Shown: piece after piece, positions 54,299 through 61,627 of the stretch
Position numbering within the stretch: the stretch's first letter is position 1
Layout of the letters: the number at the start of each line of letters is the position of its first letter
Assembly: GCA_918797485.1 (NCBI GenBank)
Contig: CAKKNE010000005.1
Location: forward strand, 2,232,001 to 2,296,000
Reading direction: 5' to 3'
Length of the DNA stretch: 64,000 nt
DNA from: Pelagomonas calceolata
Lineage: Eukaryota; Sar; Pelagophyceae; Pelagomonadales; Pelagomonadaceae
The notes under the pieces: generated by a model
Database searches by the model: none
Seen by the model: only the letters and a program-made list of their open reading frames with translations
What the model was told of the DNA's origin: nothing
Program-made: the position numbers and the translations under genes

Positions 54299-54699
54299 AG
54301 TGCTGGGTGTGCTGCAGGCTATATCGCAGCTTAGCGCTGGCTTAACAACGATGTATCACGGCAGTCAGCGAGTTAGACAGATGCGTTTGCAGCCGTGAAG
54401 TCCACTCGTGTGGCTCCACAGTTCCGCTGTTACCAAGCTGCCAGCGGCATGAGCCTCGACATTTCTTCAGTCAATATTGCGCAAAAGAAGGCTCAAAGAG
54501 GTCCTTGAAGGCTCATATCGCGTTCTTTAAGTTTTGGCGGGCTTGCTGCTTGCTAGTGTCTTACATGCCGCTAGCCAGCAGGTGCGGCGGCAGCCGTAGT
54601 TTTATCAATATTACAGCAAGCAGAATTGGCTAACGAAGCAGCATCGCTCACCATCAATCAGTGCGGCAAGGCTGCAACCATCGCGCGCTGCGCGTGACG
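54299..54699. other. divergent promoter region with one CTAG dyad
   Basis: Lies between the PRA1 and NSUN2-GNAT starts. It is AT-richer in the centre. Only the dyad at 54552-54575 was recognised. Confidence 0.45.
54552..54575 (-). promoter_or_regulatory. CTAG promoter dyad, copy 11
   Basis: On + it reads GCTAGTGTCTTAC, AT, GCCGCTAGC, a perfect match to the consensus. It is 125 bp from the NSUN2-GNAT start (54700) and 254 bp from PRA1 (54298). Confidence 0.75.
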
Positions 54700-57081
54700 A
54701 TGGCAAAGCCAGCACAGCCCGCGCTGCAGCGTGCAGCCAAGGCCGCAACCACGGCGGGCGAAGCGCATGCCTCATCCAACGCACCAAAAGAGAAACCGAC
54801 GGCAGGGGAACAGCGCTTCGAGGCCTACTACGCGCAACAGCATCTCGTGCCAGCGCCAGAATTCGCGAAACTGCTCGAGGCGCTGCGCAAGCCACTACCC
54901 ATCACGTTCCGCATCTTCGACGCGACGCGCGACGGCACGTGCGCGCGACTCGAAGCCGAGGCGCGAGCACTGGGCGCCACGCGACTTCAGGCGAAAGGCG
55001 CGTGGACATTCGCCGGCGAAGCGAGGAGGGAGCTGCGGGCGCAGGGAGATAAGACGCGAGACGGCGCTCTCAGGGACTTCCTGGTACGGGGCGACCGCTT
55101 CCGCTGCCTAAGACGGCAGGAGGAGGTGTCCATGGCGTCCGTGGAGGCCTTGGACCCGCGACCAAATGACGTTGTGTTAGATTGCTGCGCGGCGCCCGGG
55201 TCCAAGACGACGCAATTAGTAGAACGCTGCGAGGGCGGGTGCGTCGTCGCCGTCGAGTACGACGCGAAGCGAGCACGAGCTTTGGTCGCGCGCTCGCTGC
55301 ACGTCTGCGGCGGCGACCGCGCGGCGCGGCTCGTCGTCTGCAAGGGCGACGCGACCAAACTGCCGTCGTCGCAACGTTTTGATCGGGTCCTCTGCGACGT
55401 GCCGTGCTCGGGCGACGGCGCGCTGCGCAAGACCGGGATGCGAGCTTATCGTAGGTGGCGCTGCGCCGACGCGTTGGCTCTCCACGACCTCCAGCTCAGA
55501 ATTGCATTGAAGGGCGCTGATTTACTCAAGGTCGGCGGGCGCCTCGTCTACAGCACGTGTTCCCTCAACCCCGTCGAGAACGAGGCCGTCGTTTTTCGTT
55601 TGTTGGAGGCGCGGCCCGATTTGGCGCTCGTGGACCACGGCCTCGGAACGGCGTGGCGCGCGCGGCCCGGGCTGGCGACGTGGCGGTTGCTCGTCGACGA
55701 CCACCGCGGCGACGGCGTCGCCGTCGCCTCGGACGCCTACGCGCACCTCCGTCCGCCTTCCATGGATATTGGCCTCCGCCGATGCGCGCGGCTCTACCCG
55801 CACGACGGCGACCGTGGAGGGTTCTTCCTCGCGGTGTTCGTCAAAAAGACGTTTTCATTAACGACGCCGCGCCTGCGCCTGCGACCGTTCGCGGCCGCGG
55901 ACGCGGCGCGGCTCCCGGCTCTCTGCGGCGACCTCGAGGTGAGCCGGACGTGCATGCGCGTGCCGCACCCCTACGGTATCACGGAGGCCCGCTTCTTTCT
56001 GGATAAGGTGTGCGACGGCGGGGCTAGCTCCACGCAAGGGTTGACATTACGTGACAGGATTATTCAGATGAAGCGCGGCGCGGGCCCGAGCCTGACGCTG
56101 GCGGTCGTCAAGCGCGACGGCGACGAACTGATCGGCTGCGTTAGCCTCGACCGCGACAACTTTAACGAGACGCCGCGCATCGGCTACTGGCTCGGGCGCG
56201 CGTTCTGGCGCCGCGGCTACGCGACAGAGGCGGCCCGAGCTATCATCGCCCACGGCTTTGATGTCCTTAAGCTCGAGAATATTGAAGGGACGCACTTCCT
56301 GGAAAACCCGGCGAGCGGCGCCGTGCTACGGAAGCTCGGATTTGTTCCTGTGGAGGACGGGCCCTCGCCGCCGCAAGCGTGCGCCGCGCGCGGCGGGGTA
56401 GAGTTGCCGACGGCGACGCTCCGCCTGGCGCGTCCCCAATCGAGGCCGTCGACCGACGCGCACCCGCTCCGCCTCATTGACGAAGATGCCTGGAGGCGGT
56501 TGGTGTTGGAGTTGGACGTCAAAGCGGGACTCCCTTTCGGGAATGCGCTATTTGCGAGGTCGGGCGGCGGCGCGCGCGGCGCAGGCGCGTGGTTACTCGA
56601 TAGAACTGCGGCCATCGTCCTCAGCCGCCTCCTGGCCGCGGGCGTGGCCGTCGAGGGTGCCGGGGTCAAAATCGTCGAGAAACGCGGCGGTGGCGAGGCG
56701 GCGCGGCAGCTGGGCACCGACTTGTTCGACGGCCGGCTGACCTACGACGGCGCCGACGCGTTGCTGCGGCGCGGGGCGCTCGGCGCAAAACGCGTCGTCG
56801 ACGTCGACGCGACGGCGTGGCGCGTGCTGTTGAAAGGCGGACGCATTCCACTGCGCGACTTGCCCGCCGAAATGATGGAGATGAGTCCCGGCACGGCGGT
56901 CGCGCGCCACGGCGGGTCCTCGATTACCCTGTGGCGCGGCGCGGCCGACGCCGTCACCGTGATGGTTCGCGGAGATGATTTGGAGCGGCTCCGACGCGGC
57001 ATCCCTGCGGGCCGGTCGTACCTCCGCTACGCCGTTGCGGTCGCAGCCGTTGCGGCGATCGCGGTGATGCGCCGCCGTTAA
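54700..57081 (+). CDS. NSUN2-type tRNA m5C methyltransferase fused to a GNAT acetyltransferase, with hydrophobic C-terminal tail
   Basis: The ATG at 54700 (MAKPAQPALQRAAKAATTAG) gives 793 residues. Residues about 40-390 are NSUN2: FEAYYAQQHLVP, LRKPLPITFRI, RRQEEVSMASVEALDPRPND, LDCCAAPGSKTTQLVE, then catalytic motifs LCDVPCSGDGALRK and VYSTCSLNPVENEAVVF with both reactive cysteines. Where NSUN2 normally continues to its C-terminal region, residues about 390-570 are a RimJ/RimL-type GNAT (TTPRLRLRPFAAADAARLPA, IGCVSLDRDNFNETPRIGYW, LGRAFWRRGYATEAARAIIA, NPASGAVLRKLGF). Residues 590-770 resemble the NSUN2 PUA-like C-terminal region. The last 18 residues (YAVAVAAVAAIAVMRRR) form a tail-anchor-like helix. 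One frame runs through all parts with no intron signal. Confidence 0.85.
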   Translation: MAKPAQPALQRAAKAATTAGEAHASSNAPKEKPTAGEQRFEAYYAQQHLVPAPEFAKLLEALRKPLPITFRIFDATRDGTCARLEAEARALGATRLQAKGAWTFAGEARRELRAQGDKTRDGALRDFLVRGDRFRCLRRQEEVSMASVEALDPRPNDVVLDCCAAPGSKTTQLVERCEGGCVVAVEYDAKRARALVARSLHVCGGDRAARLVVCKGDATKLPSSQRFDRVLCDVPCSGDGALRKTGMRAYRRWRCADALALHDLQLRIALKGADLLKVGGRLVYSTCSLNPVENEAVVFRLLEARPDLALVDHGLGTAWRARPGLATWRLLVDDHRGDGVAVASDAYAHLRPPSMDIGLRRCARLYPHDGDRGGFFLAVFVKKTFSLTTPRLRLRPFAAADAARLPALCGDLEVSRTCMRVPHPYGITEARFFLDKVCDGGASSTQGLTLRDRIIQMKRGAGPSLTLAVVKRDGDELIGCVSLDRDNFNETPRIGYWLGRAFWRRGYATEAARAIIAHGFDVLKLENIEGTHFLENPASGAVLRKLGFVPVEDGPSPPQACAARGGVELPTATLRLARPQSRPSTDAHPLRLIDEDAWRRLVLELDVKAGLPFGNALFARSGGGARGAGAWLLDRTAAIVLSRLLAAGVAVEGAGVKIVEKRGGGEAARQLGTDLFDGRLTYDGADALLRRGALGAKRVVDVDATAWRVLLKGGRIPLRDLPAEMMEMSPGTAVARHGGSSITLWRGAADAVTVMVRGDDLERLRRGIPAGRSYLRYAVAVAAVAAIAVMRRR

Positions 57082-57104: not shown

Positions 57105-58862
57105 TTAATAAACTTCCGCGTGGTAGCGGCCCTCCTTCTTGAGCGCCTTCGTGTCGATGAACTCGTCGAGCGCCGCCGCGCACGGCTTCAGCATCCCTCG
57201 CAACCCCGAAACGTACGTGTGGCCGCCGCGGTCCATGATCTCCTTGGCAATCAGGGACAGGCCCTTGATCTTGTCCGGGAGCGTCGTCTCCGAGCCGTCG
57301 TCGACGCGCGCGCCGCCCAACGCCAACTCGAGGCGGAACCGCCCGGGACCCAATCGCTCCTGCGCCTGCTCAAATTCTTCGACGTAGGGGATGGCCTCGC
57401 GCGTCGCGCCGCCGAGGATGACGACGATGGGTCCTCGGCCAGCCGTCGGCGCCGCGTTCGCGGGGTAGAGTCGCCGCAAGAACCCGCGGAACGTCGCGGC
57501 GCCCGTCGAGGTGCCGATCAAGACCAGGCCAGCCTTAGGGTCCGCGGGAAGGACCATCGACTTGCCCATCGGTCCTTCCAGATGTAATTGCGAGCCCTTG
57601 GGAATAGTATGCAAAAAGTTCGAGGTCACGCCGACTTCGCGAACGCACAGCGCGAGTTGGGACCCCCGCTCGGAGGCGACCGTGTAGAGCCGGCGCTTCT
57701 TGTGCGGGTTGCCTTTTTCGTCATTGCCCGGCGGGAGCACAGAGACGCACTGGCCCTCCACAAACGGTAAGGACGTCTCGAGCTCGACGTGCGCGATCGG
57801 CGCGGAGCCCTCGGGCGTATCCTTGACAATCACCTCGACGGACCGCACCGTCGCGAGGGCGCCGCCGTCGAGCTTCGCGGGCGGCTCGCCGTCGTCCTGA
57901 ACGGCTTCCACCGGCGCGGCGGCGGGCACGACTAACACGCCGCCCTCGAGCTCTTGAATCTTCCGCAAGGCGCGCTGCAGCCGCGAATGTTGGACCATCA
58001 GTAATTGCACGAGGTTCTCGTTCGTGAGGATGTAGGGCTTCGCCGGGTCGGCTCCTACATCTGGCAGTAATCCGCGCACGGCGTCGACGACGGCCGGCTC
58101 GGGCGCGGCGCCGACCGCCGCGGCCGCGGGTGCCGGCGCCGATGCCGGCGCCGGCGCCGGGGCCGGCGCGGGTGCCGGCGCGGCGGCGGCGGGCGCGGGT
58201 GCTGGGGCCGCCGTGGCGTCGCCGCCGAAGAAGCCCTCGCCCGCCAAAATGTCGAGCCACTCCGACAGGCGCGCCTCGGTCTTGTCGCCCTCGTTGACCT
58301 GATCTAAGGGACAGCCGCAGAATTTATCCCCTCGCAGCGCTTTCGAGTCCTCGTGGCCGTAGCCCGACGCCGGCATGTAGCCGAAGCCCGTCTGCGCGTT
58401 CCGCGACGCGAAGACGCTCTCCAGCTCGTCAATCGCGTCGCAGAAGTTGCCGCCGTACCCGACGGAGTCGCCGCAGCCGAAGACGGCCACTTTTTTGCCC
58501 GCGAAGTCCAATGAAGGTAAACCATCATCTTCATAGTACAAATCGTCCCAGTCCGTGCCCGACCGCTCGGTATCCGCGCCCGTGTTCCACGTCGGGCAGC
58601 CCACCAGCAGCAGTTCGTGGTCCATCAAATCTTCGACTCCGTCGATCTCGTCCACGGGAAAGGAGGTTTCGCCGGCGATGCCGTCGAACTTGGCATTCAG
58701 TAATTCTACAAGTAAATCCGCCGCGGCCTCCGTGTTTTGGCCCTCGGTGCCGTAGTAAACGCCGACCTTCGACCCGTGCAAAATGGTGGACGGGCCGACC
58801 GCGCGCTGCGGCGGCGCGAAGGCATCGACGAGCGCCAGGACAACGAGCGCTGCGGCTCGCAT
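57105..58862 (-). CDS. plastid flavodoxin-FNR fusion (flavodoxin joined to ferredoxin-NADP+ reductase)
   Basis: 585 residues. The leader MRAAALVVLALVDAFAPPQR is a signal peptide followed by the heterokont plastid motif (Phe15). Residues about 32-215 are a long-chain flavodoxin: FMN phosphate loop YYGTEGQNTEAA, W loop CPTWNTGADTE, Y loop FGCGDSVGYGGNFCDAI, and DSKALRGDKFCGCPLDQVNE. A (PA)n linker (about 216-255) and a short helical segment (LVQLLMVQHSRLQRALRKIQ) lead to plant-type FNR (about 335-585): FVEGQCVSVLPPGNDEKGNP, FAD site RRLYTVAS and LCVREV, NADP site IGTSTGAATFRGFLRRLY, HTYVSGLRGML and the C-terminal tyrosine of HAEVY that stacks on FAD. In cyanobacteria and algae these are separate proteins. 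The fusion should pass electrons from photosystem I through FMN to FAD to NADP+ without iron. Confidence 0.92.
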   Translation of the reverse strand: MRAAALVVLALVDAFAPPQRAVGPSTILHGSKVGVYYGTEGQNTEAAADLLVELLNAKFDGIAGETSFPVDEIDGVEDLMDHELLLVGCPTWNTGADTERSGTDWDDLYYEDDGLPSLDFAGKKVAVFGCGDSVGYGGNFCDAIDELESVFASRNAQTGFGYMPASGYGHEDSKALRGDKFCGCPLDQVNEGDKTEARLSEWLDILAGEGFFGGDATAAPAPAPAAAAPAPAPAPAPAPASAPAPAAAAVGAAPEPAVVDAVRGLLPDVGADPAKPYILTNENLVQLLMVQHSRLQRALRKIQELEGGVLVVPAAAPVEAVQDDGEPPAKLDGGALATVRSVEVIVKDTPEGSAPIAHVELETSLPFVEGQCVSVLPPGNDEKGNPHKKRRLYTVASERGSQLALCVREVGVTSNFLHTIPKGSQLHLEGPMGKSMVLPADPKAGLVLIGTSTGAATFRGFLRRLYPANAAPTAGRGPIVVILGGATREAIPYVEEFEQAQERLGPGRFRLELALGGARVDDGSETTLPDKIKGLSLIAKEIMDRGGHTYVSGLRGMLKPCAAALDEFIDTKALKKEGRYHAEVY

Positions 58863-59468
58863 GGTGACTGCTGGTGTAGCAGTTGCTGCAAACTTCAGCT
58901 ATGCCTTGCGTTGAGACGATTGGCCTCGGCACCCGTCACAGCCGTACAAATGGCGTGTCTCGGCGCAGTTATGGTGCTGCTCGTTGATCTATGCGCGAGC
59001 GGCGATGGCACACGTGCCGGAGATGATGGCTGCGAGAGGGGATGCGTTCGGCGGGCAGGGACCCGTTCTTACGCGAATTAGAGGCGTGTGCAAGTTGCTA
59101 CACTGCTCGCAGGCACAAAAGACAAAACGTGCGGGGTCTGGCGTCCACATCACCAAACAAAAGCTGGGTGGATTCTTCGCGACGCGCACGTTCAGGCAGC
59201 GTAGGCTGCTTACGAGTCGTACAAGTCGCCCTCTCCACGCTCGTGCAAAAAAAGCTGCATCAGACGCCATCGAGGCGAGTTTGCAGCACCTGTGACCCCA
59301 GCTCCCGGCTCCCCGACGCTACCGAGGCGAGTTTTGCAGCACCCACTTGCAGGAGGCATCGTGGCGCGCCCACTTGTCCTCCTCCTCGCCACCGCCCACA
59401 CCGCAGCCGCATTCCACGGCGCAACACCGACCGTCGCACGACCAGTCCACAATAGCTCCTGGTATACG
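58863..59468. other. divergent 5' region, probably with an unrecognised exon or intron of the next gene
   Basis: Upstream of both the flavodoxin-FNR gene and the CRAL-TRIO gene. ACGCCATCGAGGCGA (59264-59278) matches the introner core at 14 of 15 positions and is followed by TTTGCAG. A 20-bp block CGAGGCGAGTTTGCAGCACC recurs at about 59323 with one extra T. From about 59360 the CRAL-TRIO frame reads VARPLVLLLATAHTAAAFHG, a convincing signal/plastid leader, but no in-frame ATG precedes it. Confidence 0.45.
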
Positions 59469-60287
59469 ATGGCCTGGGGCCGCAGCAAAGCGCCAAAGCC
59501 CGACGAGGCCACACTCATCAGTAGTCTGAAGGACGCCGTCAAGGACGAGCCCCAGGATTCCAGCTTTGTTGTAGATGACGCCTGCTGCAAGCGCTACCTC
59601 CGCGCACGCAACCACGACCTGACGAAGGCTACAAATATGCTGCGCGCTACTTTAAGATGGCGCGCGGCGTATGGTACGGCGAATATCGTAAGGGACAAAT
59701 TTCCCATCATCGAAAAGGAGGCGGCGACGGGCAAGACGTACGTCGCGCCGGGCCGCGATAAAGATGGAAGAGCGACGATCATCATGCGCTCCAAGCACGA
59801 GAACACGAATGACCACGACGGCAACGTGTTGCATTTAGTGTACCAGATGGAGCGCGCCGTGAAGGCTTGCGACGCGGAAGAAAAGTGGAACATCGTCATC
59901 GACTTTAATGGCTACGCGAAGAACACTCCGTTAAAAACGTCGAAGGCCGTCCTTTCGACGATGCAAGATCATTACCCGGAGCGGTTAAATAAGGCGTTTC
60001 TAGTGGACGCGCCGTGGCTGTTCCTGGGCGCGTTCAAGCTTATTTCTCCGTTCATTGATCCAGTCACCCGAAAGAAAATAGTCTTCGTCAAGGGCTCGGC
60101 CGAAAAAAGAGCTGCCGTGCTGTTGGAGCACTACGAGCTTGATCAGCTCGAAAAAGCCGTCGGCGGCGCGTCGGACTACGTCTACGACGCCGAGGCGTAT
60201 CTAGCCGACGATCGGGCGGCCTACGAGGCTGCTAAACCGGAGCGCGTGGCGTCGCTCGAGGAGGTGCCCGTCGTCGTCGCGGCGTGA
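59469..60287 (+). CDS. CRAL-TRIO (Sec14-like) lipid-binding protein, probably plastid-targeted
   Basis: The first in-frame ATG is 59469 (MAWGRSKAPKPDEATLISSL), giving 272 residues. The CRAL-TRIO N-helices DDACCKRYLRARNHDLTKAT, NMLRATLRWRAAY precede the lipid pocket: PGRDKDGRATIIMRSKHENT, EEKWNIVIDFNGYAKNTPLK, LSTMQDHYPERLNKAFLVDA, PWLFLGAFKLISPFIDPVTR, KKIVFVKG. These match Sec14 (Y..hYPE.l......na...f...w....pfl...t..Ki). The frame remains open upstream through a signal-peptide-like VLLLATAHTAAAF (AAF resembles the heterokont plastid motif), so the true start is probably in an upstream exon. It likely transfers phosphoinositides or other lipids at plastid membranes (inference). Confidence 0.8.
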   Translation: MAWGRSKAPKPDEATLISSLKDAVKDEPQDSSFVVDDACCKRYLRARNHDLTKATNMLRATLRWRAAYGTANIVRDKFPIIEKEAATGKTYVAPGRDKDGRATIIMRSKHENTNDHDGNVLHLVYQMERAVKACDAEEKWNIVIDFNGYAKNTPLKTSKAVLSTMQDHYPERLNKAFLVDAPWLFLGAFKLISPFIDPVTRKKIVFVKGSAEKRAAVLLEHYELDQLEKAVGGASDYVYDAEAYLADDRAAYEAAKPERVASLEEVPVVVAA

Positions 60288-60337: not shown

Positions 60338-61627
60338 TTACTCTACCCAAGGCTTGAACCACTTGCGCCTCTTCCCGCCGCGGCTCTTGATAAGTCGCAG
60401 GATCTCGTCGTGGGGGCCATCTTCGATTGGACAAGAGTCATCGTCGTCCGTCTCCCATACGAAGTCCGCGAGCTGAGGGCAGCCGCGGAATAGCCGCAAC
60501 ATGGCAGCGGATGTGAATTGGTGGTTCCCGTAGAAATAAAGCTTGCGGAGCGTCTGCGCGGTCGGAGTCTGCAAAATAGCTTCAATAGCGTCCGAACTTA
60601 AATTCTCCGTCGACGAGAGAACCAGCTCCTCCAGACGACAGCCCTCGCATATGAATCGCAGGCCCGCGTCGTCGATCTCGCTTCCCCATCCCGGATCAAA
60701 CGCCTTTATCGTGGGCCGCGCCTGCGCTAGATCGTGGTAGAACTCGGGCTCCGCAGAAAACACTTCACCATCCGGCAGGTACAATACCGTCATCGTTTTA
60801 AAGCCCCTAGCACACTGTAGGATCAGTTCAGGTGAAATCTCGGCGTAACCACGGACGACTAGCTTCCTCAGACGCCCTCGTATGGGCGACCGCAGAAGCA
60901 GATCCACCAGCGCTGGCGACACAATGCAGTCGGTAAGCCACACATGGTCCACATGTGCACATGTCCTCAAAGTCACTTCGATTTGGTCGTAACAAGTCGG
61001 TTCATAGCCTTCCGGGTCTTGCGCCCGGAATGAGAGACATTTAAGTCGGGGAAAATGCATCGCGTAGGTCTCGGCCGCGGATAGCAGATTGCTTCTAAGA
61101 CGTACATCTTCGAGCAGCGGGCACGCTCGACTCAACTCAGACGCGAAGTCCGCGAGGTTTGCCCCTTTTGTGGGACCATTAAGGCACGGCGCATCGCTCG
61201 ACGCATCAAAAACGCGTAGTTGTCGACATCCGCGACACATCTCCATGAGAACATCCCTAGAAAGAGTAGAACCAGAGAACTTGATGCGCAGTTCTCGCAG
61301 CTGTCCTCTTGTGTCGCTCACGACGAAATCCCGAATTGCAAGCATATGTTTTGAGCCGAACCCTAAATCTAAAGTTCGACAGCCGCTTCCAAAATAGCGA
61401 CCGAACGTCTGGATGGCCTGGGCGCTTGCGCCATCTCTGAATCCGATTACCTCGACCGCTTTATGCTCCCGGGCGGCTCGCTCAACCGCTTTTTTGCCCG
61501 CCTTGCACGCGCACCGCAGGGCGAGCAGGTCGGTTAGGTATGGGCGAACTGGGTGATATTTTTTCCCGACGTAAAGCGCGACGTGCGCCAGCACCTCAGG
61601 GGGCAACAAAGTTTGGAGTCCAGCCAT
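60338..61627 (-). CDS. F-box-like leucine-rich-repeat protein
   Basis: 429 residues. The N-terminus (MAGLQTLLPPEVLAHVALYV, LTDLLALRCACKAGKKAVE) is F-box-like: LPxEvL..va.y.......dl..l...ck. About eight cysteine/leucine-containing LRRs follow (CRTLDLGFGS, QLRELRIKFSGSTLSRDVLM, CPLLEDVRLRSNLLSA, LRKLVVRGYAEISPELILQC, CRLEELVLSSTENLSSDAIE, TLRKLYFYGNHQFTSAAMLR), the AMN1/FBXL type. A role as substrate receptor of an SCF ubiquitin ligase is the usual inference. It converges on the CRAL-TRIO gene 50 bp away. A CTAG dyad lies 119 bp upstream of its start. Confidence 0.65.
   Translation of the reverse strand: MAGLQTLLPPEVLAHVALYVGKKYHPVRPYLTDLLALRCACKAGKKAVERAAREHKAVEVIGFRDGASAQAIQTFGRYFGSGCRTLDLGFGSKHMLAIRDFVVSDTRGQLRELRIKFSGSTLSRDVLMEMCRGCRQLRVFDASSDAPCLNGPTKGANLADFASELSRACPLLEDVRLRSNLLSAAETYAMHFPRLKCLSFRAQDPEGYEPTCYDQIEVTLRTCAHVDHVWLTDCIVSPALVDLLLRSPIRGRLRKLVVRGYAEISPELILQCARGFKTMTVLYLPDGEVFSAEPEFYHDLAQARPTIKAFDPGWGSEIDDAGLRFICEGCRLEELVLSSTENLSSDAIEAILQTPTAQTLRKLYFYGNHQFTSAAMLRLFRGCPQLADFVWETDDDDSCPIEDGPHDEILRLIKSRGGKRRKWFKPWVE

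Follow-up and report, generated by a model that had tools for sequence, protein, structure and literature searches.

Pelagomonas calceolata encodes, in one uninterrupted reading frame, a natural fusion of a long-chain flavodoxin with a half that resembles plant-type FNR, and comparison of predicted proteins confirmed this fusion as real and as common to at least two other predicted proteins. Flavodoxin and FNR are normally made as separate chloroplast electron-transfer proteins. Our preferred reading, to which we assign a probability of roughly 0.45, is that the fusion is a plastid-targeted two-flavin protein in which electrons from photosystem I would pass via flavodoxin to FAD and on to an acceptor that is held differently from NADP+ in ordinary FNRs. 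Because the FNR half has lost residues that normally grip NADP, the protein may represent a novel type of electron relay in photosynthesis and not simply speed up the familiar one.

The fusion gene lies on the minus strand of the window (i.e., the whole stretch of DNA analysed, 64,000 nucleotides) and encodes, in this order, a leader, a long-chain flavodoxin (residues 31-210), a linker of 127 residues, and an FNR-like half (residues 338-585). Its features are as follows:

57105..58862, minus strand: whole open reading frame, 585 aa, a single frame from ATG to TAA
58773..58862, minus strand: leader, residues 1-30, a signal-peptide-like helix and then FAPP, read from sequence as a heterokont bipartite plastid leader
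58233..58772, minus strand: long-chain flavodoxin domain, residues 31-210, with flavin loops PTWNTGADTERSG and GDSVGYGGNF and a long-chain loop aligned to 2fcr
58116..58217, minus strand: Ala/Pro-rich part of the linker, residues 216-249, GC-rich 6-base repeat DNA, with pLDDT <50 over residues 224-253
57951..58097, minus strand: helical part of the linker, residues 256-304, with predicted helices 256-269 and 281-304
57108..57851, minus strand: plant-type-FNR-like FAD/nucleotide domain, residues 338-585, from profile, alignment and model
57681..57692, minus strand: RLYT, residues 391-394, flavin-binding RxY[S/T] motif with Thr instead of Ser80
57492..57512, minus strand: TSTGAAT, residues 451-457, an altered TGTGIAP
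57276..57317, minus strand: GGARVDDGSETTLP, residues 516-529, fusion-type motif at the site where canonical FNRs have SREQ...GGxMYxQ
57192..57215, minus strand: YVSGLRGM, residues 550-557, with Ser instead of Cys261
57108..57116, minus strand: EVY, residues 583-585, equivalents of Glu301 and the C-terminal Tyr303 retained

The order of flavodoxin and then FNR in one frame, as proposed in the initial annotation, was borne out by the frame itself and by the domain matches, and the FNR half does end in the tyrosine that had been described. The heterokont plastid leader that had also been proposed is likely, as the N terminus reads as a signal peptide plus plastid leader (MRAAALVVLALVDA followed by FAPP); the predicted model places a helix at residues 3-15 with low pLDDT, and we take FAPP after a signal-peptide-like helix to be the bipartite plastid leader motif of heterokonts. 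With regard to neighboring frames, a plus-strand frame (54661-57081) that joins an RsmB/F-type RNA methyltransferase and a GNAT acetyltransferase converges on the fusion gene, with stop codons 23 bases apart; a CRAL-TRIO (SEC14-type) frame (59292-60287, plus strand) lies head to head with the fusion gene; and a 429-aa frame (60338-61627, minus strand) has a leucine-rich look and gave no Pfam match at E 0.001.

In the flavodoxin half, the Flavodoxin_1 profile scored 65.6 bits (above its curated cut-off of 25), and full-domain matches below cut-off were obtained for flav_long (112 bits, cut-off 146.75) and FldA (161 bits, cut-off 172). The long-chain loop aligns to both 2fcr and 1flv. The initial annotation had described the FMN loops as intact, which holds for the two flavin loops with their Trp and Tyr, presumably the residues that flank FMN, but not for the phosphate loop, which in the alignment reads TEGQNTE in the fusion as compared to TQTGKTE in 1flv.

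The FNR half was compared in a MAFFT alignment of eight fusion-type rows, the two stand-alone FNRs of the same genome, and 80 Nostocales FNRs (kept from 269 relatives found, and representing a single cyanobacterial order), with residues given in Anabaena numbering throughout. Residue counts were taken from alignment columns and not from patterns; the pattern RLYS[IV]AS fits 78 of the 80 Nostocales rows, and the overly strict G[VI]CS.YL fits 25. The eight fusion-type rows represent about five lineages, as P0011 nearly copies the Pelagomonas fusion and P0003, P0010, and P0012 are one Aureococcus-type gene; flavodoxin is present within the predicted protein in three rows (the Pelagomonas fusion, P0003, and P0004), the other five being FNR-only predictions. 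Both the RxY[S/T] FAD motif and the FNR fold are present in the fusion, according to the alignment and the predicted model, and among the solved relatives listed for this half nearly all are plant-type FNRs. Arg77, Tyr79, Glu301, and Tyr303 are kept in every row (8/8 fusion-type, both own FNRs, and 80/80 Nostocales).

The relay from photosystem I to NADP+ described in the initial annotation implied an intact NADP+ site, and this part was not supported by the alignment. All eight fusion-type rows have Gly for both Ser223 and Arg224, Glu for Arg233, and Pro for Gln237; Tyr235 is replaced by Thr in seven rows and Leu in one, and Cys261 by Ser in six and Gly in two. Elsewhere, Ser80 is Thr in 8/8 rows, P161 is Thr in seven and Ala in one, and G156 is Ser in seven and Ala in one. 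The canonical letter is found at all replaced sites in 80/80 Nostocales FNRs and, except for Lys at 233, in both of the genome's own stand-alone FNRs. Tyr104, which we take to be the aromatic hairpin residue on the FAD adenosine, is absent from 8/8 rows (a gap in seven, Ala in P0008); the stretch from CVR to GVTS measures 9 letters in the Pelagomonas fusion, P0002, P0003, and P0010, 11 in P0004, and 22 in P0008, as compared to 21-24 in the three canonical FNRs compared. Since NADP+-site residues are replaced in all eight rows, a relay from photosystem I to NADP+ cannot be read from the sequence. The NAD_binding_1 profile scored 18.3 bits in the fusion versus 77-86 in stand-alone FNRs.

Ser223, Arg224, and Tyr235 are presumably the residues of FNR that hold the adenine and 2'-phosphate of NADP+, residues 516-529 of the fusion presumably form that same site, and we take Tyr235 of Anabaena to be the tyrosine associated with NADPH specificity. 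PMC5817062 tabulates Anabaena S223D and Plasmodium FNR Y258F among NADP-to-NAD shifts, and the title of one of its references states that one Tyr hydroxyl almost entirely controls NADPH specificity. At the place of the canonical SREQ...GGxMYxQ, the motif GGxRVDxGxETxLP is invariant in the 6/6 fusion-type rows compared; as the new letters are themselves conserved, this argues for function and remodelling rather than decay. Identity between the Pelagomonas fusion and the stand-alone FNR L003 was 47.9% in the FAD half and 36.1% in the NADP half, and for most fusion-type pairs identity to the own FNRs likewise dropped more in the NADP half. However, the control pair L003-L004 also drops (72.3 to 49.4) and P0004-L003 shows the opposite (37.5 vs 41.7); the residue table is the better evidence. 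The predicted model retains the FNR fold, and its loop 181-190 has a pLDDT of about 56; since the alternative arginine of GGxR could stand in for the lost clamp and this loop is modelled at such a value, NADP+ use is possible, and NADP+ as the acceptor of the fusion is, on sequence, doubtful.

A protein search with the fusion (8000 candidates scored) gave six matches, a search with the FNR half gave seven, and a two-domain profile search (8000 candidates scored) found 336, from which the best 120 were listed, 18 inspected, and 21 more aligned. The same domain order, for which the initial annotation had proposed to search other proteomes, was found in P0003 (Aureococcus, NCBI, 482 aa) and in P0004 (JGI, 648 aa, named 'flavodoxin long chain'), which sits on a 2,531-base contig and unites leader, flavodoxin, linker, and FNR in a single predicted chain. 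The P0003 model is flawed, as 24 residues around PTWNTG that are present in P0016 are absent from it. P0001 and P0005 contain pieces of both halves with frame slips; P0002, P0008, and P0010-P0012 represent the FNR half only (P0012 being a separate Aureococcus model without flavodoxin), P0016 and P0018 the flavodoxin half only, and P0009 the linker helix plus part of the FNR half. For P0008 and P0009, which have fusion-type FNR without flavodoxin in the predicted protein, truncation and a separate gene are indistinguishable. P0006 and P0007, in which a near-identical piece of the fusion is joined to an FtsA-like or dynein-like domain, are likely assembly chimeras and were left out. With scores of 368-411 bits for the two-domain profile, P0013, P0014, and P0015 at first resembled diatom fusions but were rejected because they are tandem flavodoxins; P0013, from the diatom Nitzschia, has two long-chain flavodoxins in tandem, and P0014 and P0015 share this layout. 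Many diatom-type flavodoxins (e.g., P0036 and P0051) also carry, after the flavodoxin domain, a C-terminal tail of about 25 residues, NPxTxxTMWVSxDGRxCYYT.

In a tree of the FNR half (14 rows), the six fusion-type rows grouped as one clade with support of 100/100, and the branch leading to it measured 1.09 changes per column; the tree does not settle the mutual order of the three pairs inside. In a tree of the flavodoxin half (24 rows), five fusion-type rows, including P0016 and P0018, formed one clade (97/91). By path length, both trees place the Pelagomonas fusion closer to Aureococcus than to P0004. As each half forms one supported clade, the trees fit a single ancient fusion after which both halves would have been inherited together. 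Among the matches listed for 194 cyanobacterial genomes (93 with a match), hits covered the flavodoxin or the FNR half and none covered both; no fusion was found in the viral contigs searched, and a first scan of genome contigs with the two own FNRs as queries also found none.

On the putative docking face of the FNR half, Lys75, Lys138, Lys290, Lys293, and Lys294 are kept in 5/5 fusion rows compared, and extra Lys/Arg residues lie beside the flavin motif; in these five rows, position 72 is Asn in the Pelagomonas fusion and Val in P0002, Leu76 is replaced by Arg or Lys, and Val136 and Glu139 are variable. Transfer from the flavodoxin domain to FAD within the chain seems plausible, and the natural linker, with 127 residues, seems to have the length needed to bring the two domains together; the predicted model of the chain has a pTM of 0.50 and does not give the relative placement of the domains. 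Linker helices 256-269 and 281-304 form a block with pLDDT 61-81, falling from residue 301, and the second helix (LTxENxVxLLxxQxxRLQ) is also found in P0002, P0009, and the Aureococcus-type P0010, and not clearly in P0004. Derivation of this helix from the N-terminal helix of L003 is suggestive at most and is not claimed; shuffles were equally good in 10 to 565 of 5000, depending on the row, and BLASTP gave no hit for P0002 and E 0.88 for P0004. For engineered FldA-Fpr, PMC4503991 indicates that linkers of at least 15 residues effectively supported P450 turnover and that proline-rich linkers were generally better; the latter was also reported for YkuN-Fpr (PMC5575160), in which the best fusion showed slower NADPH oxidation and heme reduction, and better coupling, than the separate partners. 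Tethering thus need not speed transfer.

The genome searched comprised 32,445,274 bases in 8 contigs; for strain RCC100, PMC9481584 describes a nuclear genome of 32.4 Mb in six contigs, one further contig each for the plastid and the mitochondrion, and a GC content of 63.6%. Flavodoxin_1 gave 12 matches and Fer2 13. L009 is a stand-alone long-chain flavodoxin, with a second one in pieces (L005/L017), and stand-alone FNRs are represented by L003 (411 aa) and L004 (a 253-aa frame plus an upstream exon identified by eye). Two P450-reductase-type proteins, L006 and L008, matched FAD_binding_1 with 74 and 81 bits, and L007 appears by eye to be another; a weak FNR-like match, split over frames, was also seen at G000:C5:4887892-4888649. 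The claim that the partners are tethered instead of separate therefore holds in part: they are fused, but the genome also encodes free-standing partners, namely two FNRs and one or more long-chain flavodoxins, and the fusion is thus an extra. PMC9481584 reports 11 flavodoxin genes in P. calceolata with higher expression at low iron, and PMC13284251 reports flavodoxin up at low iron in this species without naming the gene.

Under our preferred reading, a single fusion event would have joined a plastid flavodoxin to a plastid FNR, no later than the last ancestor shared by Pelagomonas, Aureococcus, and the organism that P0004 comes from. Within the stroma, the flavodoxin domain would accept electrons one at a time at the acceptor side of photosystem I and, carried by the long linker, reach the basic face of the FNR half, where it would give them singly to FAD; reduced FAD would then pass two electrons through the pocket of retained Thr, Glu, and Tyr to NAD+, to NADP+ at low specificity, or to some other acceptor, in each case held differently from NADP+ in ordinary FNRs. 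The fusion would act beside the cell's ordinary flavodoxins and FNRs, not as their substitute. A narrower form, which we put forward tentatively, is that this stromal flavodoxin-FNR with its rebuilt nucleotide site would, at low iron, send photosystem I electrons to a non-NADP+ acceptor (NAD+ or a non-nucleotide partner).

An ordinary relay, in which electrons go from photosystem I via flavodoxin and the fused FNR to NADP+ and the tether removes an encounter step at low iron, would fit the plant-type FNRs that make up nearly all solved relatives listed, the retained Glu, C-terminal Tyr, and several docking lysines, and the rise of an unnamed flavodoxin transcript at low Fe (PMC13284251); we nonetheless consider it unlikely given the replacement of the 2'-phosphate/adenine clamp and Cys261 in 8/8 rows, the low NAD_binding_1 score, and the two ordinary FNRs in the genome. 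Similarly improbable in our estimate is a flow in reverse, as in P450 reductase, in which NAD(P)H would reduce FAD and then flavodoxin, which would serve plastid enzymes requiring low-potential electrons in the dark or under ferredoxin shortage. In its favor, the N-to-C order of FMN and then FAD domain is that of the diflavin reductases L006 and L008, P0003 carries the (probably automatic) NCBI name 'NADPH-hemoprotein reductase', and engineered flavodoxin-reductase fusions do work in this direction (PMC4503991, PMC5575160). Against it, loss of the clamp weakens any NADPH-driven role, and ordinary plastid FNRs can themselves run in reverse.

The long branch of the fusion-type FNR clade and the loss of Cys261 and the clamp would also be expected if the FNR half were no reductase and served as a docking or regulatory module that keeps flavodoxin near photosystem I, thylakoids, or partner enzymes; we regard this as quite improbable, as a dead domain needs neither Arg77, Tyr79, Glu301, and Tyr303, kept in 8/8 rows, nor a new conserved motif. 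Least probable of all, in our judgement, is an annotation artefact, with two genes or a hidden intron or stop in the linker and the whole chain never made. The linker is partly GC-rich repeat DNA, shuffling left the linker alone open in 410 of 2000 cases, and the Aureococcus models disagree (P0003 fused, P0012 FNR only); against this, the independent P0004 has all parts in one protein, the trees of both halves are compatible with one fusion, and no leader-bearing start was seen by eye before the FNR half, the nearest Met (residue 289) lying in the linker helix.

A natural fusion of this kind is apparently undescribed. Among open-licence PMC papers, no report of a natural flavodoxin-FNR fusion was found, only engineered flavodoxin-reductase fusions; neither FNR nor 'gene fusion' occurs in the main text of PMC9481584 and neither FNR nor 'fusion' in that of PMC13284251, and 'fused' or 'fusion' was not found in the accessible portions of PMC10287166, PMC5322553, and PMC5785536. 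P. calceolata has been described as adapted to oceans poor in iron (PMC9481584). An electron outlet at photosystem I that has so far gone unrecognised is one possibility suggested by the rebuilt nucleotide site, and, if the narrower form of our preferred reading is true, one of the most abundant ocean algae would have a separate outlet for these electrons.

Compared with known systems, the fusion shares with long-chain plastid flavodoxins the whole domain and the Trp- and Tyr-bearing flavin loops and differs from them in its C-terminal partner and its altered phosphate loop TEGQNTE. Unlike plant-type FNR (PetH), the fusion is joined to flavodoxin and lacks Tyr104, Cys261, and Ser223/Arg224/Tyr235. 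The CpcD linker domain of bifunctional CpcD/PetH is absent, NF058510 being matched only at 131-405 of 405, which is the FNR part. Tandem double flavodoxins of diatoms and relatives (P0013-P0015) also have flavodoxin first, two domains, and a low-complexity linker, but their second domain is another flavodoxin, where the fusion has FNR. Engineered FldA-Fpr and YkuN-Fpr (PMC4503991, PMC5575160) likewise connect flavodoxin to a reductase through a linker, which in the more successful constructs is rich in proline; unlike the fusion, they are man-made, use a bacterial-type reductase, and were assayed with P450 or cytochrome c. Finally, diflavin reductases (P450 reductase, methionine synthase reductase, sulfite reductase flavoprotein, and P450 BM3) have, like the fusion, an FMN and then an FAD domain in one chain; however, they contain FAD_binding_1 (PF00667), for which the fusion gave no listed match up to E 1 in a scan whose HMMER filters discard most weak matches, in contrast to controls L006 and L008, in agreement with the initial annotation that a P450-reductase-type connecting domain is lacking. 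Diflavin reductases have been proposed to descend from a flavodoxin-reductase fusion, and why bacterial flavodoxin reductase-flavodoxin fusions gave nothing to diflavin modules remains unknown according to the same source (PMC9687028). As the halves of the fusion resemble plastid and cyanobacterial proteins, it probably arose independently of diflavin reductases; under the tentative narrower form of our reading, pelagophytes would have re-invented a diflavin enzyme from the photosynthetic pair itself. A separate fusion of this plastid pair without the FAD_binding_1 connecting domain would allow a direct test of how two diffusing partners became one enzyme.
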